A stretch of 64,000 nt of DNA from an uncultured Clostridia bacterium (GTDB lineage Bacteria > Bacillota > Clostridia > Christensenellales > Borkfalkiaceae). Of this stretch, positions 804 through 20,354 are shown piece by piece. The stretch spans positions 28,327 through 92,326 of the forward strand of contig CALVRO010000004.1 in NCBI GenBank assembly GCA_944358655.1, written 5' to 3'. Each line of letters opens with the position of its first letter. Position 1 is the stretch's first letter. The notes below the pieces were generated by a model that saw only the letters and a list, made by a program, of their open reading frames with translations, made no database searches and was not told the origin of the DNA. The position numbers and the translations under genes are program-made.

Positions 804-1244
804 ATGATAAACTTGTCGAAAACGGCGGAGAACATCAGGGAACTGATGGACGAACACGAACTTACGCAGGCGCAGCTTGCCTGCAAACTCGGAACGGGGC
901 GAAGCAAACTTTCGGACATGCTCAACGCAAGGACGGCGCCCGCATACCCGACCATGCTCGCGCTGGCCGAATATTTCAACTGCTCGGCCGATTTTATTTT
1001 GGGGCTGAGCGAATACCCCGGCGAGGACGGGCAATACCGACCCGCCGCGCCCTTTGAAAACAGACTGCGTACAATGTTTGAGGAGAGCGGAAAGAGCCAA
1101 TATTCCCTTGTAAAGCAGACGGGCATATCGTGGAGCGTTCTCCACGGCTGGCTGACGGGCCGCACCCGTCCTTCGGCGGCAAACCTTATAAAGTTGGCTC
1201 AATTCTTTGATTGTTCGGTGGACTTTCTGCTCGGAAGAGTATAA
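804..1244 (+). CDS. Double-HTH Xre-family transcriptional regulator (2)
   Basis: This 146-residue paralogue of the preceding gene also has two Xre HTH units (about residues 4-65 and 82-143). The first ends FNCSADFILG, and the C-terminus AQFFDCSVDFLLGRV is identical to that of its neighbour. The last ~54 bp of the two genes (717-770 and 1196-1249) differ at one base, while the rest of the genes has diverged clearly. That points to gene conversion or selection on the 3' end. The two genes probably form one transcript. Function as a regulator is secure from the fold; the target and signal are unknown. Confidence 0.85.
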   Translation: MINLSKTAENIRELMDEHELTQAQLACKLGTGRSKLSDMLNARTAPAYPTMLALAEYFNCSADFILGLSEYPGEDGQYRPAAPFENRLRTMFEESGKSQYSLVKQTGISWSVLHGWLTGRTRPSAANLIKLAQFFDCSVDFLLGRV

Positions 1245-1245
1245 T

Positions 1246-1288
1246 AAAAAAAGCGCGTTGCCTGCGGCATATGCCGCGGGCAACGCGC
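1246..1288 (-). terminator. Terminator of the ferredoxin/rubredoxin operon
   Basis: Near-perfect hairpin at 1253-1288 (GCGCGTTGC...GCAACGCGC arms). On the minus strand it is followed by seven T (A run at 1246-1252). It lies between convergent genes and may also slow transcription from the plus side, but the T tract serves the minus strand. Confidence 0.85.
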
Positions 1289-1300
1289 ACAATAGGCAGT

Positions 1301-1789
1301 TTAATCGTTTACGGGCAGCATGGCCATCAGCCGACCTGCTATTTCGGCGGCCCTTTCGTCGCCGCTTAAAGCAATGTCCTTTAAAAGGGCGTGCACTGCC
1401 GAACTTTGGGGCAGCATATAGCCGCCCTCGCGCAGGGCGTCCTCGGCGGACAATCTGCAGGAGAGCGCCACGCATTTATAAAATTGCGATAAAGCCCCCT
1501 CCGACCGCGCCGCAAGCGTGCGCGCGGCGTTTTCGGCCTGCACCTTGCCCTTGGCAAGTTCGCCCATGGCCGCGGCAACGCCGTCGGTCTTGGGCTGCTG
1601 AGGAGGCATGCGGACGGGCACGAGGCTTATTGCCGCGCTCGGACAGGCCTGCGCGCAGGCCCCGCAGCCTATGCATTTTTGCCTGTCTATAACGCTGTTT
1701 TCGGTGTCGGCCGCGCCCGTGGGGCAGACGTACAGGCAGAGGCAGTCCTTGGTACAGAGGCGCAGATTGCGCACGGCGAAAGTTTTCAT
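1301..1789 (-). CDS. 2[4Fe-4S] ferredoxin with C-terminal helical extension
   Basis: The N-terminal ~55 residues are a dicluster ferredoxin. The second cluster motif is canonical ([13 protein letters not shown]39-C42-C45-C49). The first is spaced C12-x3-C16-x-C18-x3-C22-P ([12 protein letters not shown]) instead of C-x2-C-x2-C-x3-C. A ~100-residue helical tail of unknown role follows. Its ATG overlaps the stop of the upstream rubredoxin-like gene by 4 bp (ATGA), so the two are translationally coupled and probably pass electrons between them. An oxygen- or peroxide-defence role would fit a clostridial anaerobe but is inference. Confidence 0.85.
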
Positions 1790-2427
1790 TGCACCTGCCC
1801 TCCCGCCACGAATTTAAAAGAGGGAACCTTGCACACGGGGCAGATCTCGGGCGGCTCGTCGCCGACAAATATGAAGCCGCAGATGGTGCACACCCATATC
1901 TTTGCGTCGCGCAGGGCGGCCTCGCCGCCGTTCTGATAGCGCGAGATGAGCGATTTGAGCACAAAATTAACCCGTTCGCCCCATACTATGGCGCGTTGAG
2001 CGCCCCTGTCGCTCGCAGCCTCCGCCTCGGCCTTGGCCGCGGCGAACTGTCCGTCGCAGGCGTCCTTAATAAGTTTTACAAGCTCGCCGTCGCTCCCCTC
2101 GGCGGGCGGAACGAGGGACGAATAGTGCTCGGCCAACCGCGCAAACAGGGCGTGCTCCTCGTCCATGTACTGCTTTTCGCAGCCGCGCGCAAGGTTGGAG
2201 CATATGGCCGCAAGTTCGGCGGCAGAGAGCGCCCTCTCCCCCTCCACGTCCTCCGTCGCCGCGCCGACGGCGGGCGCCGCGCGCCCGGCCTCGGGCTCTT
2301 GGGCTGCGAAGGCCGACTTGGGCATCCCGCATATGGGGCACACCCAGCTTTCGGGCAGGTCGGCCCAGGGGACTCCCTCCTTTGCATCGTCGTAAACATA
2401 CCCGCAAACGGGGCAGACATACTTCAT
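1786..2427 (-). CDS. Rubrerythrin-like protein with rubredoxin domains at both ends
   Basis: Residues 1-40 form a rubredoxin with both CxxCG knuckles (CPVCGY, CPICGM). After an Ala/Pro-rich linker comes a ~110-residue helical domain like the four-helix core of rubrerythrins ([14 protein letters not shown]). The C-terminus is a second rubredoxin-type iron site (CTICG...CPVC). I do not see the full set of diiron Glu/His ligands, so peroxidase activity is uncertain. The start has a strong Shine-Dalgarno (AAGGAGG). It is the first gene of a two-gene operon with the ferredoxin. Likely role: iron-sulfur/rubredoxin electron transfer in oxidative-stress defence. Confidence 0.8.
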
Positions 2428-2527
2428 GTTTTTTCCTCCTTACTGCGGGGCGGGCCCGCTCGCCTATATTATAAGGGCAAAGGGGAGCGTTGTCAATATG
2501 CGCGCAAAAAATCGAGCGGAAATTTTT

Positions 2528-3184
2528 TCAGTAGTCGCGCCGCTCGTCGGCGGCGCAGCCCCGTCGGCGGGTGGTGACGACGCGGAAGTTGTTGCGCGGC
2601 GTAAGCGAAAATACCGTTTCGGGGCGGGGCGAAGTGAGCAAAGACCCCGTAATATCCGCGAAATACGCGCAGTTGCCCGCACACATAACGGCAGGGATGC
2701 CGTAGAGGTAGGCATAGACGCGCAGCAGCGTGGCCTGCATGGGCGAGGGCTCCTCCGAGAGAAAGGCCAGAAGGTCGCAGCCGAGCAGCGAGAGGCTGCC
2801 GATATTTTCGGGGAAGAGCATGTCGTTTTCGATGCACACCCCCACGCGGTAGCCGCCGAGGCGGTAGTGGCCGAGCGTGGCGCCGCTCTTGTAATTTTCG
2901 CCGCCGACGACGTGGAGCATGTCGGAGATGCCCGCCAGCCTGCCGCCCTCGGCCACGGCGGCCGACTTGCGCCTTAGCCCCCTGCTGTCCGTGCGACAGC
3001 CGCACACCGCCGCGCGGGCGGGGCCCGAGGTCAGCCTTGCGAGCACGCCGAGCTTGTCGCTCCTGCCGGCGAGCTCGCTTGAATAGTCGACGTCGCCCAG
3101 CCACCCGAAGCCGAGCAGGGCCACGTCGCAGGGCGGGAGCTCCGCCCTCCCCGCCACGGGGCGGGTGAGCACACAAATCTTCAT
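2528..3184 (-). CDS. Nitrilase-superfamily-like protein, probably catalytically inactive
   Basis: 218 residues with the order and spacing of a carbon-nitrogen hydrolase. GYRVGVCIENDMLFPE aligns with the nitrilase nucleophile segment GxxICYDxxFPE, but the Cys position is occupied by Glu and a Cys lies two residues earlier. The N-terminal FPE-type catalytic Glu segment is also altered (ALLGFGWLGDVDY). A Lys in GENYKSG sits where the catalytic Lys would be. I chose Met 3184 (MKICVLTRP); Met 3193 is possible and neither has a strong Shine-Dalgarno. It diverges from the M1 peptidase across 68 bp. The fold assignment is moderate; loss of normal catalysis is inferred from the motif. Confidence 0.6.
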   Translation of the reverse strand: MKICVLTRPVAGRAELPPCDVALLGFGWLGDVDYSSELAGRSDKLGVLARLTSGPARAAVCGCRTDSRGLRRKSAAVAEGGRLAGISDMLHVVGGENYKSGATLGHYRLGGYRVGVCIENDMLFPENIGSLSLLGCDLLAFLSEEPSPMQATLLRVYAYLYGIPAVMCAGNCAYFADITGSLLTSPRPETVFSLTPRNNFRVVTTRRRGCAADERRDY

Positions 3185-3252
3185 ACATACCATACTATTT
3201 TCTCGGCCGCAAAAATGTTCTAACGGGCGGGGCGGGGGAATATTTTAAGAGT

Positions 3253-10173: not shown

Positions 10174-10587
10174 CTATCTGCCCGCGCCCTTGCGGCGCAC
10201 CTTTAGCTTTGTTACGGCGCGCGCCAGCTGGGCCTGCATGGAGCGGTACTCCTGCCTGCTCATCTTTTGCAGCAGCGCCTCGCGCGCGGCGGCCTCCTCC
10301 TCCCTCGCCCTGTCGGCGTCTATCTCCTCGGGGCGAAGCACATAGTCGACGAGGATGAGGACGTCGTTGTCCTCCACCTTCATTATGCCGCCCGCAACGG
10401 CGACGGTGAGGTGGTCGACGCCGGGCGCCGTAAAAGTCAGTTCGCCCGGGACTATGGCCGTTATAAGATTGGCGTGGCCCGCCAGAACGCCGTATTGTCC
10501 GTCGACGGCGGGCACAATGACGCTGTAGCAGTCGCCTTCATAGAAGACCCTGTCGGCGCCGATCAGATGGAATTGAAAGGGTGCCAT
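10174..10587 (-). CDS. atpC: F1 ATP synthase subunit epsilon
   Basis: 137 residues. The N-terminal beta-sandwich (PFQFHLIGADRVFYEGDC...GQYGVLAGHANLI) matches epsilon subunits. It is followed by the two-helix C-terminal hairpin (DADRAREEEAAAREALLQK). Epsilon sits on the rotor with gamma and couples or inhibits hydrolysis. It is the last gene of the operon, 109 bp after atpD, with an operon terminator downstream. Full family length. Confidence 0.95.
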   Translation of the reverse strand: MAPFQFHLIGADRVFYEGDCYSVIVPAVDGQYGVLAGHANLITAIVPGELTFTAPGVDHLTVAVAGGIMKVEDNDVLILVDYVLRPEEIDADRAREEEAAAREALLQKMSRQEYRSMQAQLARAVTKLKVRRKGAGR

Positions 10588-10696: not shown

Positions 10697-12978
<2,282 letters not shown>

Positions 12979-13137
12979 ACAAAAACTTATCGCTCAAGTC
13001 GTACTCGCCGCACGCGGCTCCGTGCGACTTGCAGCGAGGTAATTTGTCGGGCGGCGCTTAACGGCAGAAATCAATTCCGCCTACGCCGCCTCGGCGTTGA
13101 TTATTTGATTATTTTTTTGTTAACGCAAATTGGGGCC

Positions 13138-13167
13138 TTTCACCCGAAAGCGCGGTTTCGGGTGAAA
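13138..13167. other. Perfect hairpin in the atpA-atpG gap
   Basis: TTTCACCCGAAA / TTTCGGGTGAAA 12-bp stem around GCGCGG, without a T tract on the transcribed strand. The rest of 12979-13190 holds no gene I can support. Confidence 0.6.
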
Positions 13168-13190
13168 ACGTTAATTATTTATACTTTGAC

Positions 13191-13403
13191 CTCGCGCAAA
13201 ACCGTGGCTTTTGCGCGAAAGAGGAGGGATAACCGAGCATAGTTGCAAGTTGAATTTATTCGACTTGCCTTAAGTGAGGTTTATCCTTAAATAATTCTTT
13301 TCCACAGCCTCGCGCAAAACTGTAGTATTTGCGCGATAGAGGAGGGGTAACCGAGCGACGTTGCAAGTTGAATTTATTCGACTTGCTTTAAGTGAGGTTT
13401 ATC
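13191..13403. repeat. Two direct repeats of ~96 bp, period 118 bp
   Basis: Copies start at 13191 and 13309. Each holds a hairpin of CGCGCAAAA/TTTTGCGCG type (13193-13217, 13311-13335), a GAGGAGGG spacer and a second hairpin GCAAGT...ACTTGC. The first hairpin recurs in reverse orientation at the extreme right end of the window (63970-64000). Confidence 0.8.
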
Positions 13404-13439
13404 ACGACGAGCCGAGGCATCTCTACCTGAGTTCCGTTG

Positions 13440-13665
13440 TGTTCGGCCAATGAGATCCTTCGCTATCGCTCAGGATGACAATGGGGAATGAATAATAGAA
13501 TTATCGACCTCTCCGTCTGCACACTCTCGTGTGCAGACACCTCTCCATACGAAGGAGAGGCTATATTGCGGTAAAAGTGTATCTGAAGCGTAGCCCGGGA
13601 GATTTCTCCGTTCCGCTCGTTACACTCGCTACAGTCGAAATGACATGCTCTACCCGAGGGAAGGG
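13440..13665 (-). repeat. Composite dispersed repeat, copy C (inverted)
   Basis: Read on the minus strand it has the module order of copy A: CTCGGGTAGAG, GTCATTTCGACT, GAGAAATCTCCC, CTTCAGATAC, hairpin 1 (13541-13561) and hairpin 2 TCTGCACAC/GTGTGCAGA (13517-13538). It adjoins GAGATCCTTCGC...CAGGATGACAATG (13450-13481), which recurs at 63811. Confidence 0.8.
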
Positions 13666-13679
13666 GCTGCGCGCACCCC

Positions 13680-13760
13680 ACCCTCCCCTTGTCATGCCGA
13701 GCAGCGCGCCGAAAGGGTTGGATGCAATGTAAGCATGTGCGCGCGTTGTCGAGGCATCTC
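13680..13760. repeat. GTCATGCCGAGCAGCGCGCC dispersed repeat, copy 1
   Basis: About 80 bp from CCCTTGTCATGCCGAGCAGC to GAGGCATCTC. A second copy is at 63706-63780 with the same ends and interior differences. It ends just before the atpA stop region. Confidence 0.8.
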
Positions 13761-13778
13761 AAAGTATCAGCGACGGAA

Positions 13779-15740
13779 TCACTTCCCGCGGCGGGAGACG
13801 TAGTCCTTTGCGGCGTCGATTATGGCCGTGCGCAGCTCGGGCGTGAGCGCCTTGCCGGACTTGACCTCGGCGACTATTTCGGGGTGGGCGTCGTCGAAGA
13901 AGTCCAGAAGTCCGCCCCTGAGCGCGGGGATATCGTCGGGCGAAACGCCCGCGAGGGCATGACCCGTGGCCGCGACGAGCAGTATTACCTGCCTGTATTC
14001 GGGCAGGGGGCTGTACTGCGGCTGGCGCAGCAGCATCATAAGCGTGCGACCGTAGTCGAGCGTCTTTTGCGTGTTCTCGTCGAGGTCGGAGGAGAACTGC
14101 ATGAACACCTCCATCTCCCTGTACTGAGCGAGCGACAGCCTGACCGTGCCCGCGGCCGTCTTCATGGCCTTGGTCTGGGCGTCGCCGCCCACGCGCGAGA
14201 CGGATATGCCGACGTTTACGGCGGGGCGCTGGCCCGAATAGAACAAATCGCCCGAAAGGAAGATCTGGCCGTCGGTGATCGAAATGATATTGGTGGGGAT
14301 ATATGCCGAAATGTCGCCCGCCTGCGTTTCAACTACGGGCAGAGCCGTCATCGAGCCGCCGCCGCGCTCGTCGGAGAGGTGTGCGGCACGCTCCAAAAGG
14401 CGGGAGTGCAGATAGAACACGTCGCCGGGGTAGGCTTCGCGGCCGGGCGAGCGGCCGAGGAGCAGGCTGAGAGCCCTGTAGGCCACGGCGTGCTTGGAAA
14501 GGTCGTCGTAGATGATGAGCACGTCCCTGCCCGAATTCATGAAGTATTCGCCTATGGCGCAGCCCGAATAGGGCGCAATATACTGCAGCGAAGCCGGTTC
14601 GCCCGCCGTGGACGACACTACTATCGTGTAGTCCATCGCCCCCCTCTTTTTGAGGTTTTCAACGAGGTGAGCTACCGAGCTGGCCTTCTGGCCTATTGCA
14701 ACGTATATGCAGACGACGTTCTGGCCCTTTTGGTTCAGAATGGTGTCGATGGCGAGCGCCGTCTTGCCCGTCTGGCGGTCGCCTATTATCAGCTCGCGCT
14801 GGCCGCGGCCGATGGGGAACATGCTGTCGATGGACAATATACCCGTGCGTAAGGGGGTGTTGACGGGCTGGCGGTCGATTATGGAGGGGGCAGGATTTTC
14901 AATGGGCATGTAGGCCTGAGCCGCTATGGCTCCGCCGCCGTCGACGGGCGAGCCGAGGGCGTCCACCACCCTGCCTATCATGCCTTCGCCGACGGGCACG
15001 CCCGCCGTTTTACCCGTGCGGTAGACGGCCGACCCGGCCTCTACCTCCCTGTCGCTGCCGAAGAGCACGCAGCCCACGCCCTCGGGCGAGAGCTCCTGCA
15101 CCATGCCCTTGAGGCCGCACTCGAACACCACCGTTTCGCCGTATTCGGCCATGTCGAGCCCGCTTATCTTGGCTATGCCGTCGCCGACGGACAGCACCCT
15201 GCCCGCCTCCCTTGCGGCGGCGGACATCGACCAGCCCTCGATGGTGTTTTTAAGGCTGTCGACCGCCTCCCTCAGGAGGGTGGTGACGCCCTTGGTGCTC
15301 GAGCCTATGTCCTGCTTGAACTGCCTGATGCGGCTGACGGCCGACCAGTCGTAGACGTTGTCGCCGTACTCGAGGCGGAAGCCGCCGACTATTGCTGGAT
15401 CCTTTATCACCTCTATGCGGGGGCGGGAGCCGTATGTGCGCTGCAAAAAGTCGCCTATGCCCTTGAGCTGGCGCTCGTCGGGCGGGGTGACGCAGTAAAG
15501 TTTTGCCGAGGAGGCGTCGAGTTGGTTCTGCGCGGCCTTGAATTTGCCTATCCAGTTTTTGGCCGACCAGTCGTAGATGCTGCCGCCGTATTCGAGGCGG
15601 AAGCCGCCCACAACGGAGGGATCGTTTATTATCTCTATCTGAGGGCGCGAGCCGAAGGTGCGCTCCAGAAAGTCGCCCAAGCCCTTGAGCTGGCGCTCGT
15701 CGGGCGGGGTGACGCAGTAAAGTTTTGCCTTATCATTCAT
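13779..15740 (-). CDS. atpA: F1 ATP synthase subunit alpha fused to two tandem delta C-terminal domains
   Basis: 653 residues from the ATG at 15740 (Shine-Dalgarno AAGGG, 8-base spacing; a GTG at 15749 is less good). Residues ~5-70 and ~79-144 are two copies, offset 74 residues, of the delta/OSCP C-terminal domain (KLYCVTPPDERQLKG..., NDPSVVGGFRLEYG, YDWSA). A complete alpha subunit follows: N-terminal helix from ~151, Walker A GDRQTGKT ending at 327, arginine-finger segment SVSRVGGDAQTKAMK. The upstream 150 residues replace a separate atpH, absent between atpF and atpA. The delta N-terminal domain, which normally grips alpha, is missing. It overlaps atpF by 8 bp. The domain reading is confident; the consequences are inference. 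Confidence 0.93.
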   Translation of the reverse strand: MNDKAKLYCVTPPDERQLKGLGDFLERTFGSRPQIEIINDPSVVGGFRLEYGGSIYDWSAKNWIGKFKAAQNQLDASSAKLYCVTPPDERQLKGIGDFLQRTYGSRPRIEVIKDPAIVGGFRLEYGDNVYDWSAVSRIRQFKQDIGSSTKGVTTLLREAVDSLKNTIEGWSMSAAAREAGRVLSVGDGIAKISGLDMAEYGETVVFECGLKGMVQELSPEGVGCVLFGSDREVEAGSAVYRTGKTAGVPVGEGMIGRVVDALGSPVDGGGAIAAQAYMPIENPAPSIIDRQPVNTPLRTGILSIDSMFPIGRGQRELIIGDRQTGKTALAIDTILNQKGQNVVCIYVAIGQKASSVAHLVENLKKRGAMDYTIVVSSTAGEPASLQYIAPYSGCAIGEYFMNSGRDVLIIYDDLSKHAVAYRALSLLLGRSPGREAYPGDVFYLHSRLLERAAHLSDERGGGSMTALPVVETQAGDISAYIPTNIISITDGQIFLSGDLFYSGQRPAVNVGISVSRVGGDAQTKAMKTAAGTVRLSLAQYREMEVFMQFSSDLDENTQKTLDYGRTLMMLLRQPQYSPLPEYRQVILLVAATGHALAGVSPDDIPALRGGLLDFFDDAHPEIVAEVKSGKALTPELRTAIIDAAKDYVSRRGK

Positions 15741-16425
15741 TGCCGTCACCCTTGTCGTCGCCGTTTACCTGACTTAAGAACTGGTCGTAGACGGCGCTGT
15801 CGCTCGTCTTGCCCTGTGCCATTATGGCCGATGCGGCGGCCTCGCCGAGTATGTCGGCCACCTGTCTGCGGCCCATGCCTTGGGCGGACGAAGCCGCTCC
15901 GCCGACAACGGAGGCCTGCCTTTCGGGCGCGAGGGGCGCCTCGTCCTTGGCGAGGGCGAGATATTTGTCGTACAGGGCGCCGTCGGTGGCGGCGTTGCTT
16001 TCGGAGGCGAGCAGCTTTTCGGCCGAACGGACGACCATGACGCTTATCTCGTCGCCTGCGCCCGCTATGTAGCGTTCGCGCTCGGCCTCGGCACGCTTGC
16101 GGCCCTCCTCCACTATCCTCCTGGCCTCGGTTTGGGCCTCGGCTATCATGCGGCTCTTTTTGGCCTCGGTGGCGGCCACTGCCTGCCTTTCGCGCTCGGC
16201 CATCTCGCCGTCGAGGGCGGAGATCTTGAGCTGTCTCTCCTTTTCGAGGGCCTCGGTCTCGGCCACCTTTTGGGCGTGCTCGGCCGCGGCCTTCTTATAG
16301 CCCTCCTCGCGCTCGGTCATGAACTTCTTTACTGGTTTGAACAGCAGAAAGCTCAGTCCCGCCGCTAAAATTATGAAGTTGAACAGATGCAGCAGTATCT
16401 GCTGCCAATCGATGTTAAGGGGCAT
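15733..16425 (-). CDS. atpF: F0 ATP synthase subunit b with extended C-terminus
   Basis: 230 residues against the usual ~160-170. One N-terminal transmembrane helix (10-30) is followed by the long charged coiled coil (TEREEGYKKAAAEHAQ...) that forms the peripheral stalk. The normal end is around residue 160. A further ~70 residues follow and contain a second version of the end motif: TDGALYDKYL (147-156) and SDSAVYDQFL (208-217). The C-terminal tail of b is the part that binds delta, so this extension may match the doubled delta domains on alpha (inference). Confidence 0.92.
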   Translation of the reverse strand: MPLNIDWQQILLHLFNFIILAAGLSFLLFKPVKKFMTEREEGYKKAAAEHAQKVAETEALEKERQLKISALDGEMAERERQAVAATEAKKSRMIAEAQTEARRIVEEGRKRAEAERERYIAGAGDEISVMVVRSAEKLLASESNAATDGALYDKYLALAKDEAPLAPERQASVVGGAASSAQGMGRRQVADILGEAAASAIMAQGKTSDSAVYDQFLSQVNGDDKGDGNE

Positions 16426-16506: not shown

Positions 16507-16884
16507 TTATACAACGAACATTATGAGTATGGCCACGATGAGCGCGTAGATGACGACCGTTTCGATAAACACGAGGCCGAGCATGAGCGTGCTCCTTATC
16601 TTGCCGTCGGCTTCGGGCTGACGGGCTATGCCGTCCATGGCCTTGGCTATCGCCATGCCCATGGCTATTGCGCCGCCGAGCGCGCCGAGACCTATGGCTA
16701 TGGCCGCGCCTACGGACGTCAGCGAGGGAGCGGCTGCGGCCGCCTCCTCTGCGGCGACTGCCGCGTCGGTGGTTTCGGCCAGCACGACGCCGCTGCCGGA
16801 CATGCACAGCATTAAGGCTGCAAGGGCCGCTACTGCAAGGGCTGCTACTGCAAACAGGATTGCGTTGCTTTTAGTGATCTTCAT
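16507..16884 (-). CDS. atpE: F0 ATP synthase subunit c with signal-like N-terminal extension
   Basis: 125 residues, about 45 longer than usual. Residues 1-50 hold a hydrophobic stretch (9-27) and an Ala/Glu-rich segment, resembling a cleavable signal peptide. The c hairpin follows, with the polar loop ARQPEA (R88-Q-P-E) and the ion-binding E108 in VFIETVVIYAL. The Gln that marks Na+-binding c-rings on helix 1 is a Met here and the following Ser is Thr, so H+ is the likelier ion. Start preceded by GGAGGAATG-type Shine-Dalgarno. Confidence 0.93.
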   Translation of the reverse strand: MKITKSNAILFAVAALAVAALAALMLCMSGSGVVLAETTDAAVAAEEAAAAAPSLTSVGAAIAIGLGALGGAIAMGMAIAKAMDGIARQPEADGKIRSTLMLGLVFIETVVIYALIVAILIMFVV

Positions 16885-16963: not shown

Positions 16964-17818
16964 CTATGCCGCGGCCTTTTTGGCCCTGAGCTTTCGGGGC
17001 TTGGGCGCGGGGCGCTCGGTGACCTCGCCGAAGTATGTGGCCGTGAGCATGGTGAGAACGTAGGTCTGTATTATGGCGTGGAGCAGCGTGAAGAGCACGC
17101 CGACGACGACGGGCACCGCCACGCTGAGGAATATGGCGTAGTAGACGAGCTCGGTGACGAGCAGGCCGGACAGCAGCGCGCCGAACAGACGGAAGCTCAT
17201 GGATATTGGCAGCGAGAATTCCTTCAAGGCCCTGCCCAGCCCCCTGACGCCGTTGGTGGCTATGCCGCCGCCGAGGATGATGAAGTAGGACAGAAAGCCC
17301 ATGGCTATGGCCGCGTTTATGTCCGAAAGGGGCGCGGGCATGCTCACGGAGTGGCCTGCGACGTCGACGAGCTGAACGCCTATCAGTTCGAACAGCGTGC
17401 CGACGAAGATATAGCAGCCCGCGGCAAAGATATAACAGCCCAGAAAGCCGTTGCTGTGGGGGCTGCTGGTCTTGGCCATGTTGTTGAAGAAGCCCACGGC
17501 CTGCTCGAGCACCATCTGGAATTTGCCGGGCACCTCCCTGAAGCGGGGGACGGCGAAGATGCGCACGCACGCCGCAAAGACGAGGAGCACCGCCGTGACT
17601 ATGTAAGCCGAAATGAGCGCGGGGTTGACCTCTATCAGCCCGAAGAGCGAGAACTTCTTCTCCTCGTGCAGAACGGCGTCGGTCAGTTCCTCCGAGAGGG
17701 CGCCCTTGTCGGGCGAGCCTATGGCTATGGCGCCCGCAAGCAGCGCCGCCAGAACGGCGACGAGCACGGCCGCTATCAGCCAAAGTTTTTTGTTGACGCC
17801 TTTTTTAACCGTCTTCAT
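16964..17818 (-). CDS. atpB: F0 ATP synthase subunit a
   Basis: 284 residues from the ATG at 17818, chosen for the AAAGGAGGTC Shine-Dalgarno; the longer frame is upstream noise. Several membrane helices are evident. The essential Arg lies in ISMSFRLFGALLSG, with Ala where many have Asn, and the last helix is HAIIQTYVLTMLTATYFGE. A basic tail (RPAPKPRKLRAKKAAA) ends the protein. It provides the half channels for ion flow. First conventional gene of the operon; no atpI is seen. Confidence 0.95.
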   Translation of the reverse strand: MKTVKKGVNKKLWLIAAVLVAVLAALLAGAIAIGSPDKGALSEELTDAVLHEEKKFSLFGLIEVNPALISAYIVTAVLLVFAACVRIFAVPRFREVPGKFQMVLEQAVGFFNNMAKTSSPHSNGFLGCYIFAAGCYIFVGTLFELIGVQLVDVAGHSVSMPAPLSDINAAIAMGFLSYFIILGGGIATNGVRGLGRALKEFSLPISMSFRLFGALLSGLLVTELVYYAIFLSVAVPVVVGVLFTLLHAIIQTYVLTMLTATYFGEVTERPAPKPRKLRAKKAAA

Positions 17819-17979
17819 GCTCTGATAAGACCTCCTTTGTCGGGCCCGCAGACGACAAAAAACGCCGCGGGCGCGCTTGAAGCGGCCTGCGGCGCAAGCA
17901 TAACTGTCTGCATTTCGCACGGGACTAAGCCCGGACGGCGAAAATTTTCCGCACCGGTCGCTTTCATCCCTCTCATCAT
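17815..17979 (-). CDS. Possible 54-codon leader ORF overlapping atpB
   Basis: An ATG-ATG at 17979 lies about eight bases after the -10 of the atp promoter, and the frame ends in TGA overlapping the atpB ATG (ATGA). The peptide starts MMRGMKATGAENF and ends VCGPDKGGLIRA; it is not hydrophobic and resembles no known family. There is no Shine-Dalgarno, so it would be leaderless. It could be a translated coupling peptide or chance. Confidence 0.25.
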   Translation of the reverse strand: MMRGMKATGAENFRRPGLVPCEMQTVMLAPQAASSAPAAFFVVCGPDKGGLIRA

Positions 17980-18109: not shown

Positions 18110-19492
18110 TTACCTCAGCTCGTCCTTGGCGCGGGGGAAGATCTGCGTGTCGCGTATGTTGCCCATGCCCGTAACGTACATGAGTATCCTCTCCAGCCCG
18201 AGGCCGAAGCCGCTGTGGGGAACAGAGCCGAACTTTCTTAAGTCCATGTAGTTGGCGTAGTCCGAAAGCTTCATGCCGCGGTCGGTTATGGCCTTCAGCA
18301 GCTTGTTGTAGTCGGCCTCGCGCTCGCTGCAGCCTATTATTTCGCCCACGCCGGGCACGAGCAGGTCGGTGGCGGCCACCGTCTTGCCGTCGGGGTTGAG
18401 CTTCATGTAGAAGGACTTGATGTCCTTGGGATAGTTGACTACGAACACGGGGCGGTTGTACACCTCGTCGGTGAGATATCTCTCGTGCTCGGTCTGCAGG
18501 TCGCACCCCCACTCGACGGGGTAGACGAACTGCCTGCCGCTCTTTTTGAGTATGTCCACGGCCTCGGTGTAGTCCACGCGGGCGAACTCGTCGTCGACGA
18601 CCTTTTGGAGCTTGGCCGTGAGGCCGGGCTCGTAGAAGCGCTCGAGGAGGGCGAGCTCGTCGGGGCACTCGTCGAGGACGGCCTTGATGATATACTTGAT
18701 GAACTCGGTGGCTATCTCAATGATGTCGTCTATCTCGGCGAAGGCTACTTCGGGCTCTATCTGCCAGAACTCGGCGGCGTGGCGGGTGGTGTTGGAGTTT
18801 TCGGCGCGGAAGGTGGGGCCGAAGGTGTATATCTTGCCGAAGGCCGTGGCCATGACTTCGCCCTCGAGCTGGCCCGAGACGGTCAGCCCCGCCTTGCGGC
18901 CGAAGAAGTCGGCGGCGTAGTATTCCTCGGCGCTCTTGTATTCGGGGGCGTAGCCGAGGGTGGTGACCTGGAATATCTTGCCCGCGCCCTCGCAGTCGCT
19001 GCCCGTGATTATGGGCGTGTGGACGTAGAGATAGTCGCGCTCCTGAAAGTAGCGGTGGATGGCCGCCGATATCTTGCTGCGCACCCTGAACACGGCGTTG
19101 AAGGTGTTTGTGCGGACGCGCAGATGGGGGAGCGTGCGCAGATAGTCCAACGAGGTCTTGGCCTTCTGTATGGGATAGTCGAGGGGGCAGTCGCCGAGCA
19201 GGGTGACCTTTGCGGCGTTGATCTCCACGGTCTGATTTTTGTTGAAGGACCTGACGGCCTCGCCCTCTATCCTCACCGAGGAGCCGAGGCGGGAGGCGCC
19301 GTCCTCGAGGGCGGGCACTTCGGCCTTGTTTATTACTATCTGAAGGTGATTGAGCGTAGTGCCGTCGTTGAGGGCCATGAAGGCCATGTTTTTGCTGTCG
19401 CGGAAGGAGCGTATCCAGCCGCATACCACCACCTGTTTGCCGAAGTACTCTTCGGGCGCGCCAAGTATGCGCTTGATGTCGGTGTGCTTCAT
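18110..19492 (-). CDS. asnS: Asparaginyl-tRNA synthetase
   Basis: 460 residues, full length. The N-terminal OB-fold anticodon-binding domain starts VVVCGWIRSFRDSKNMAFM. The class II catalytic core follows, with motif 2 (FGPTFRAENSNTTRHAAEFW) and motif 3 (GFGLGLERILMYVTGMGNIR). The AEFWQIEPE segment fits AsnRS rather than AspRS, and the T-box specifier AAC upstream agrees. Shine-Dalgarno AAGAGGT precedes the ATG. Charges tRNA-Asn in the cytosol. Confidence 0.97.
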   Translation of the reverse strand: MKHTDIKRILGAPEEYFGKQVVVCGWIRSFRDSKNMAFMALNDGTTLNHLQIVINKAEVPALEDGASRLGSSVRIEGEAVRSFNKNQTVEINAAKVTLLGDCPLDYPIQKAKTSLDYLRTLPHLRVRTNTFNAVFRVRSKISAAIHRYFQERDYLYVHTPIITGSDCEGAGKIFQVTTLGYAPEYKSAEEYYAADFFGRKAGLTVSGQLEGEVMATAFGKIYTFGPTFRAENSNTTRHAAEFWQIEPEVAFAEIDDIIEIATEFIKYIIKAVLDECPDELALLERFYEPGLTAKLQKVVDDEFARVDYTEAVDILKKSGRQFVYPVEWGCDLQTEHERYLTDEVYNRPVFVVNYPKDIKSFYMKLNPDGKTVAATDLLVPGVGEIIGCSEREADYNKLLKAITDRGMKLSDYANYMDLRKFGSVPHSGFGLGLERILMYVTGMGNIRDTQIFPRAKDELR

Positions 19493-19770: not shown

Positions 19771-20026
19771 AAAAAGCCCGTCCCATGCAAAGACATAGGA
19801 CGGGCCGGAATTGCCCGCGGTACCACCTAAATTACTGCAAAGCAGTCACTTTGAGAGCAGATCAACGTACTGCCAAACGGCCGCCCTACTGCCCGCCGGA
19901 CGAGGTTGGGGCGACTTGCTCCCGAGGGTTCTTCGCACACGGCGCCGACGCGGAACTTACACCGCCTTCCGCTCGCTGAAGCCGCCTTCCGTGGTTACTC
20001 GCTCGTTCATCGCAAATCTGATTGTG
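19771..20026 (-). promoter_or_regulatory. T-box riboswitch (Asn) controlling asnS
   Basis: On the minus strand: stem I with the distal CAGCGAG...GGTGTAAG signature, a specifier loop GAAG-AAC-CC with AAC (Asn codon) at 19930-19928, and the T-box AGGTGGTACCGCGGG (19828-19814). The terminator GGCCCGTCC...GGACGGGC plus TTTTT follows (19806-19771). Uncharged tRNA-Asn should pair with AAC and the UGGU bulge and favour antitermination. Confidence 0.93.
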
Positions 20027-20120: not shown

Positions 20121-20354
20121 GCGGCACACCGCAGACGGCGGCCCGCAGCCATTTGGCTGCGGGCCGCCGTGAAAACTGCCGTATATGGGGCGCCTGAGCG
20201 GGGACGGCCTCGATCATCCTCCGCCCAGCTTATACATGCGGCACACCGCAGACGGCGGCCCGCAGCTTCTTTGCTGCGGGCCGCCGTAAAAACTGCTGTA
20301 CACGGGGCGCTTGAGCGGGGACGGACTCGATCATCCTCCGCCCAGCTTATACAT
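20121..20354. repeat. 117-bp tandem duplication covering the end of the small membrane-protein gene
   Basis: Units 20121-20237 and 20238-20354. Each holds a strong palindrome (CGGCGGCCCGCAGC.../...GCTGCGGGCCGCCG) and the last eight codons of the adjacent gene. They differ at a handful of positions, including the palindrome loop (CATTTG or TTCTTT). The T tract precedes rather than follows the palindrome on the transcribed strand, so it is not a normal terminator. A further GC hairpin is at ~20094-20120. Confidence 0.85.

Follow-up and report, generated by a model that had tools for sequence, protein, structure and literature searches.

Tandem delta C-terminal domains fused to the alpha subunit and a doubled docking end on subunit b in the ATP synthase of an uncultured Clostridia bacterium

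The ATP synthase operon

The window (the whole 64,000-nucleotide stretch of DNA analyzed here) contains a seven-gene F-type ATP synthase operon that runs on the minus strand from 17920 to 10174 in the order a, c, b, alpha, gamma, beta, epsilon. The genes were assigned by profile matches, together with open reading frames for atpB, atpF, and atpA. They are atpB (a subunit; 16964..17920 from the first possible start, the true start perhaps lying downstream), atpE (c subunit, 125 amino acids; 16507..16884), atpF (b subunit, 230 amino acids; 15733..16425), atpA (alpha subunit, 653 amino acids; 13779..15740), atpG (gamma; 12088..12978), atpD (beta; 10697..12091), and atpC (epsilon; 10174..10587), all on the minus strand. 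Both functional residues, the Arg in subunit a and the Glu in subunit c, are in place. The stretch of subunit a at the key Arg reads FRLFGALLSG in eight of nine loci compared and AMLSG in the ninth, a Tissierellia metagenome-assembled genome (MAG) locus, L049. At its N terminus, subunit c (16507-16884) is extended by about 50 residues, which by eye resemble a signal sequence, and c subunits of similar length occur in many relatives with the fused type of AtpA described below.

A first-pass annotation, made from the letters of the window alone, had stated that no atpH lies between atpF and atpA, and the two genes indeed overlap by 8 nt when atpA is read from its ATG.

Two delta C-terminal domains at the start of AtpA

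The N-terminal domain (NTD) of delta normally holds the N-terminal helix of alpha, and its C-terminal domain (CTD) grips the b2 stalk. The product of atpA (ATG at 15740, stop at 13779; a GTG upstream at 15749 would yield 656 amino acids) combines an alpha subunit with two N-terminal delta/OSCP CTDs, the first at residues 5-70 (15531..15728, minus strand) and the second at residues 79-144 (15309..15506, minus strand). They are followed by a retained N-terminal helix of alpha (modeled at residues 152-168; 15237..15287, minus strand), recognized from the alignment and the AlphaFold2 model, and by the conserved alpha core (residues 157-648; 13797..15272, minus strand), which is the stretch matched by TIGR00962 (713 bits against a cut-off of 484.45). 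This is the arrangement that the first-pass annotation had described, with CTD copies at residues ~5-70 and ~79-144, set 222 bp apart, ahead of a full alpha subunit, and each part of it was borne out, the two copies by the agreement of PF00213, repeat search, and predicted fold, and their spacing by both DNA repeat comparisons.

The search with PF00213 (OSCP), a check which that annotation had itself suggested, gave two matching stretches in the N-terminal part of AtpA (whole-protein E value of 3.7e-18; score of 66.6 bits, with the cut-off at 22.3), and the better one covers profile positions 101-171 of 172, i.e., the C-terminal half only. At the DNA level the repeats, which begin at residues 5 and 79 and thus 222 nt apart, are 83% identical over 180 nt, with a longest identical run of 48 nt; an independent repeat search returned two 193-nt copies that are 82% identical at the same spacing. 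An AlphaFold2 model of the AtpA N terminus (36 alignment rows; mean pLDDT of 79, pTM of 0.46) contains two E-H-E-E-E-H domains of the same fold, with 10-residue pLDDT means of 87 to 97 across both, and models residues 169-194 without confidence.

When this N terminus was compared with the PDB by Foldseek, every chain in ranks 1 to 37 came from an ATP synthase entry, the engineered fusion 9jc1 included, with only 1 of 764 matches at an E value of ≤0.001. TM-scores by query length were low (0.27 to 0.34 in ranks 1 to 37) because one target domain covers one of the two query domains. The sequence match to the PDB is the stronger evidence: the closest chain by phmmer is the engineered 9jc1_I (E value of 1.9e-10), with query residues 78-193, which take in the second copy, aligned to chain residues 5-120.

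Both copies keep the motifs [GS]GFRLE and [YF]D[WYR][ST] in all 21 double-CTD loci compared, and the Trp of YDWS is kept in the second copy in 21/21 and in the first in 18/21. Compared with 15 single-fusion rows (AtpA with one fused CTD), the alpha N-terminal helix is longer by 7 alignment columns. The double CTD is genuine and maintained, and in our reading delta has been dissolved into alpha.

A doubled docking end on subunit b

The main addition beyond the doubling of the CTD in alpha is found in its neighbor, AtpF. The b chains in the PDB align by phmmer to AtpF residues 9-157 at most and stop at a first docking end, ALYDKYL (residues 150-156; 15958..15978, minus strand). AtpF then continues into a C-terminal extension (residues 164-230; 15736..15936, minus strand), delimited by comparison with relatives, the AlphaFold2 model, and the PDB alignment, in which a second docking end, AVYDQFL (residues 211-217; 15775..15795, minus strand), was recognized by motif comparison and by a hidden Markov model (HMM). 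Two such motifs (YDxYL/YDxFL), 61 to 73 residues apart, are present in all 24 AtpF proteins compared from the window's clade, 21 of them from double-CTD and 3 from single-CTD loci; in each, b runs on for about 70 residues past the first motif and then repeats the docking end. In single-fusion relatives, b stops soon after a YDxFL-like motif, which has its strict form in 57 of 74 and a close variant (YEQFL, IDQFL, etc.) in 8 more, the remaining 9 being the most distant single-fusion b proteins (L012, L014, L016, L017, L020, L023, L029, L030, and L032), which are without it.

An HMM built from the C termini of 65 single-fusion b proteins, all outside the clade, scored each of the 24 clade extensions at 7.7 to 21.3 bits, and none of 2,400 shuffled extensions equaled the score of its original. 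The match is modest in bits and, for the majority of loci, limited to the half of the profile that bears the motif (starting near position 28 of 50). A comparison of the two ends by hhalign (probability of 96.4, E value of 1.3e-9) is flattering, since the segments were cut at the motif, and we rely on the shuffle test for the duplication. In the AlphaFold2 model of b (mean pLDDT of 83, lower toward the C terminus), each motif is part of a short helix that follows a turn (H145-161 and H209-222). A search of the genome returned no second b gene over the cut-off. Thus, b has duplicated its delta-docking C-terminal end across the clade, and the doubled dock on alpha and its presumed partner on b, doubled as well, are found in the same lineage.

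Absence of a separate delta and conservation in the genus

Searches of the draft genome (1.85 Mb in 66 contigs, 92.6% complete) yielded no separate atpH and no PF00213 match over the cut-off other than the two CTDs of AtpA, in agreement with the first-pass statement that atpH is missing. Profile positions 1-99, the delta NTD, were not covered by any PF00213 match over the cut-off in the draft; the next-best PF00213 match covers profile positions 8-60 at 11.4 bits (E value of 0.27), below the cut-off.

The arrangement was then sought in 93 genomes of the genus, the window's own included, of which 24 have an F-type gamma gene. Among these 24, AtpA is double in 21 (one of them, G128, counted as double from the two PF00213 matches of a single genome search), single in 2 (G015 and G057), and truncated at the end of a contig in 1 (G068, which gave no match); no other PF00213 match over the cut-off was found in any of the 24. 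The conservation check that the first-pass annotation had proposed therefore found the fusion in related genomes, in diverged versions that speak against an assembly error, and neither of the two findings named in that annotation as refuting the fusion turned up in the draft genome or its relatives. Such an error, or a broken gene, could be entertained in that the window's genome (66 contigs) and its relatives are drafts, but the recurrence of this gene layout, in diverged sequence, in locus L035 and 20 further genomes of the genus, and an open frame in a genome that has no V-type marker, leave this explanation refuted and with next to no probability.

Across the genus, a V-type marker (PF01813) was found in 47 of the 93 genomes, the F-type marker in 24, both in none, and neither in 22; the probability of this non-overlap by chance is 7e-10 if the genomes are treated as independent, which they are not. 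The window genome contains the F-type marker only, and the enzyme described here is apparently the sole rotary ATPase of the cell. The genome also holds two Rnf-Nqr matches. Rnf is a known source of the ion gradient in fermenters.

Distribution and origin of the fusion

Fusion of a CTD to alpha extends well beyond the genus. Among the best 80 loci listed by similarity to the window's AtpA, a chosen set, 71 have a single fused CTD and 9 have two (8 in the window's clade plus L049). No extra open reading frame matched a CTD HMM in the stretches around 120 fused loci, several of which come from the same genomes and in which a lone NTD would escape this HMM. In a sample of the order, a fused-CTD profile matched 36 of 297 genomes. 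Single fusions made up 25 of these, 5 had a full-length delta and 3 a stand-alone CTD-only gene, and the 3 doubles all belonged to the genus of the window, with types assigned by open-frame length and with a profile that favors the fused types. One of the order genomes, G106, has a full-length delta gene and, elsewhere, a single-type fused AtpA, and two F-type systems may coexist there. In the phylum sample the profile matched 15 of 398 genomes, 10 at full-delta length and 5 fused (the window's own genome, G162, G214, G219, and G259). In the class sample, PF00213 itself matched 224 of 393 genomes, and the best matches listed are full-length. The fused design is widespread but patchy in the Clostridia and belongs to a minority.

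Nine loci of relatives (L006 to L011, L013, L015, and L019) have stand-alone CTD-only genes of 71 to 94 amino acids, which share these loci of 2.3 to 3.2 kb with atpF and atpA. A tree of alpha was built from 115 rows, leaving aside L126, 13 loci that were duplicates or too short, and 34 of the 71 loci with a single fusion. With 32 full-delta rows as the outgroup, the 83 other rows, all CTD-only, were set apart by a branch with SH-aLRT support of 96. The same split (support of 98/94) was recovered in a check tree of 54 rows, comprising 16 of the 32 full-delta rows and a chosen part of the others, without L166, and one near-full-length fusion fell on the CTD-only side. Stand-alone and fused rows are intermixed in the deeper sub-clade. 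In a simple history suggested by these trees, the delta NTD would have been lost, the remaining CTD would have been fused to alpha once or more, and the CTD and the b end would thereafter have been duplicated in this genus. A third natural type of fusion is found in L167 (G259; 1210-3201), where alpha is joined to nearly the whole of delta (PF00213 positions 26-171). L167 is sister to a CTD-only fusion and shows that fusion with the NTD present also exists, so fusion may have come before or after the loss of the NTD.

The doubled CTD and the doubled b end occur together in 21 of the 24 clade members compared, and in the other three (L042, L127/G015, and L128/G057) a doubled b end accompanies a single CTD. 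In the tree of the alpha core, L127 and L128 lie inside the double clade and L042 is sister to the window's sub-clade, which points to the loss of a CTD copy in L127 and L128. The converse combination is seen in a separate lineage, the Tissierellia locus L049 (2959-5599), which has two fused CTDs beside an ordinary b of 159 amino acids; its repeat unit takes in a copy of the alpha N-helix, and its domain has an insertion. The L049 CTDs are 80% identical to each other and group together in a tree of the repeats. Because of these four exceptions, the link between CTD and b-end doubling rests on essentially one clade.

In the repeat tree, which has few columns and 29 of 56 inner branches open, first and second copies cluster by sub-lineage. 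Approximately unbiased (AU) tests did not reject trees in which all first copies were held together (P = 0.071) or all second copies were held together with the singles (P = 0.113). The doubling may have arisen by one CTD duplication followed by gene conversion or by several duplications, as both are compatible with the tests.

Comparison with known ATP synthases

To our knowledge, ATP synthases were long held to have one peripheral stalk each. That rule was broken by an engineered Bacillus PS3 enzyme, delta-deltaN-alpha, in which the NTD was removed and the CTD fused to alpha; it carries up to three stalks and a-subunits, about two on average by SDS-PAGE, with 15, 51, 26, and 8% of cryo-EM particles having 0, 1, 2, and 3 stalks, respectively, and has an H+/ATP ratio of 5.8 (PMC12229609). 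Its authors concluded that the delta NTD restricts the enzyme to one stalk, argued that no more than three a-subunits can be accommodated around a c10 ring, and stated that a multi-stalk enzyme with stably bound stalks is still needed (Ueno et al. 2025; PMC12229609). They also named natural delta-alpha fusions (Acidaminococcus fermentans; UniProt G4Q3K6 and A0A1I2C5T3), which they predicted to be multi-stalk (PMC12229609).

The window's AtpA is like the engineered PS3 fusion (PDB 9jc1) in lacking the delta NTD, in carrying the CTD before alpha, and in having no separate delta; it differs in being natural and in having two CTDs and a doubled b end, whereas the PS3 construct has one CTD per alpha and an ordinary b. 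The Acidaminococcus-type proteins, including G4Q3K6 and A0A1I2C5T3, are likewise delta-alpha fusions without the NTD, but PMC12229609 speaks of a single-CTD-like design, and the window has two. Single-fusion AtpA proteins of other Clostridia (including Faecalibacterium, Flintibacter, Neglectibacter, and Anaeromassilibacillus) have a CTD of the same family, and the nearer relatives share the b motif; their loci differ in having one CTD and no b longer than 185 amino acids from an LNID-like start. The delta-deltaN-alpha fusion is thus already known, and the tandem CTD with the doubled b end is new as far as the literature searched goes, which took in few subscription papers and no preprints and in which no report of either doubling was recognized.

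The closest PDB sequence to AtpF is b of Chloroflexus aurantiacus (E value of 1.4e-10). Entries for that ATP synthase (9itj, etc.) hold two delta and four b chains each by chain count (12 delta chains in 6 entries and 72 b chains in 18 entries). These counts fit a natural multi-stalk enzyme, and a 2025 structure paper reportedly describes this ATP synthase with two stalks and two a-subunits. The C. aurantiacus delta is a separate protein, unlike that of the window. In the mycobacterial b-delta fusion, delta is likewise joined to a stator subunit, but this is b and not alpha (PMC5709465). A b-delta fusion at the window was rejected, as AtpF has no PF00213 match at E values up to 1 and scores 16.5 bits against 328 with NF009961. 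An N-ATPase was rejected as well (alpha, 621.2 bits against 750.5 with TIGR03324; b, 38.1 against 224.7 with TIGR03321).

A possible multi-stalk enzyme

We consider it a little better than an even chance that the window encodes a naturally stalk-multivalent ATP synthase, in which delta is dissolved into alpha and both CTDs and b ends are doubled. Every alpha would carry two covalently attached CTDs able to grip b2. By analogy with the engineered enzyme, loss of the NTD would let each alpha dock a b2 stalk directly, and, with less certainty, the enzyme may have two stalks or at most three, each paired with an a-subunit of its own. The extra stalks would raise the ion/ATP ratio, as they do in the engineered protein, and might allow ATP to be made at low ion-motive force. 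We further propose, from this locus only, that two CTDs per alpha and two ends per b would give a two-point grip, which would counter the stalk loss seen in the engineered single fusion. That the enzyme is evolution's answer to that stalk dissociation, providing a high ion/ATP ratio in a fermenter, is a more tentative suggestion, to which we assign somewhat less than an even chance.

Two points made by the first-pass annotation bear on this proposal. Its argument that covalent fusion removes the need for the delta NTD agrees with what the engineering study reports for the Bacillus PS3 enzyme (PMC12229609). Its count of six b-binding domains for three alphas stands insofar as there are two CTDs per alpha, but six CTDs do not imply six stalks, because the same study argues for an upper limit of three a-subunits on a c10 ring (PMC12229609). 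Six CTDs per F1 exceed any plausible number of stalks, and we count this against the multi-stalk reading, together with the retention of the alpha N-helix, whose usual NTD partner is absent, and the lack of an F-type gamma gene in 69 of the 93 genus genomes.

Alternatively, the enzyme may have a single stalk with a reinforced grip, the two doubled b ends of one b2 being held by the tandem CTDs of one alpha or of neighboring alphas while the other CTDs stay empty. The doubling would then serve mechanical strength and not extra stalks. The coincidence of doubled CTD and doubled b end in 21 of 24 clade members fits this explanation too, and assembly with one stalk is evidently easy, in that 51% of the engineered particles had one stalk and 15% had none (PMC12229609). 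We nevertheless regard it as unlikely, though worth serious consideration, as the searches found no delta NTD that would break the symmetry and hold the number at one, and the engineered enzyme, with its NTD removed and the CTD fused, averaged about two stalks by SDS-PAGE (PMC12229609).

It is improbable that the tandem duplication is neutral, with one CTD sufficing and the second copy and the b extension drifting without function. Loci with unmatched numbers of CTDs and b ends do exist (L042, L127, L128, and L049), the position of the single-copy L127 and L128 inside the double clade suggests that loss is tolerated, and the CTD copies are more variable than the alpha core (mean pairwise identities of 0.64 and 0.68 versus 0.86). 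Against drift stand the key motifs kept in both CTDs of all 21 double loci and the YDxYL/YDxFL motif kept at both b ends in 24/24.

Slightly less probable still is that the CTDs are removed from some of the alphas, by an internal start or by proteolysis, leaving about one delta-like unit and ordinary stoichiometry. Met172 (15225-15227), just before the alpha core, is present in 40/40 clade loci (24 distinct members), whereas of the 73 fused loci from outside the clade that could be read at this position only 2 have it (L105 and, with an unsure alignment, L032). In the window it is preceded, seven bases upstream, by GAGGG. The putative Shine-Dalgarno (SD) pairing at this Met amounts to -5.0 to -8.3 kcal/mol in 12 of the 24 clade members, values that the weaker of the real starts also show, but to only -0.9 to -2.7 kcal/mol in the other 12, so that the signal is not conserved; the real atpA start has -4.3 to -10.0 kcal/mol in all 24 loci scored. 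An internal start making short alpha chains is therefore weakly supported at best.

For the multi-stalk reading, the significance of the locus lies in its relation to the 2025 engineering study, which broke the one-stalk rule and foresaw natural cases. The window belongs to a sizeable group of Clostridia with that design, and its sub-lineage went further, with dock and presumed stalk partner both doubled. With it come specific genomes and proteins on which the numbers of stalks and a-subunits and the ion/ATP ratio are open to measurement, and the doubled parts suggest a route to the mechanical stability of a multi-stalk enzyme.

Other features of the locus

The gap between atpA and atpG (12979-13778) is 800 nt long, and its last 479 nt (13300-13778) belong to dispersed repeats, with 122 matches across the genome. 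The gap also contains two copies of a 96-nt element, with similar pieces near 63.5 to 64.0 kb of the window. A T-box leader (RF00230, 95.7 bits; 19793-20019, minus strand) lies upstream of a gene at 18110-19492 that by eye encodes an aminoacyl-tRNA synthetase, and a 117-nt tandem repeat lies at 20121-20354.
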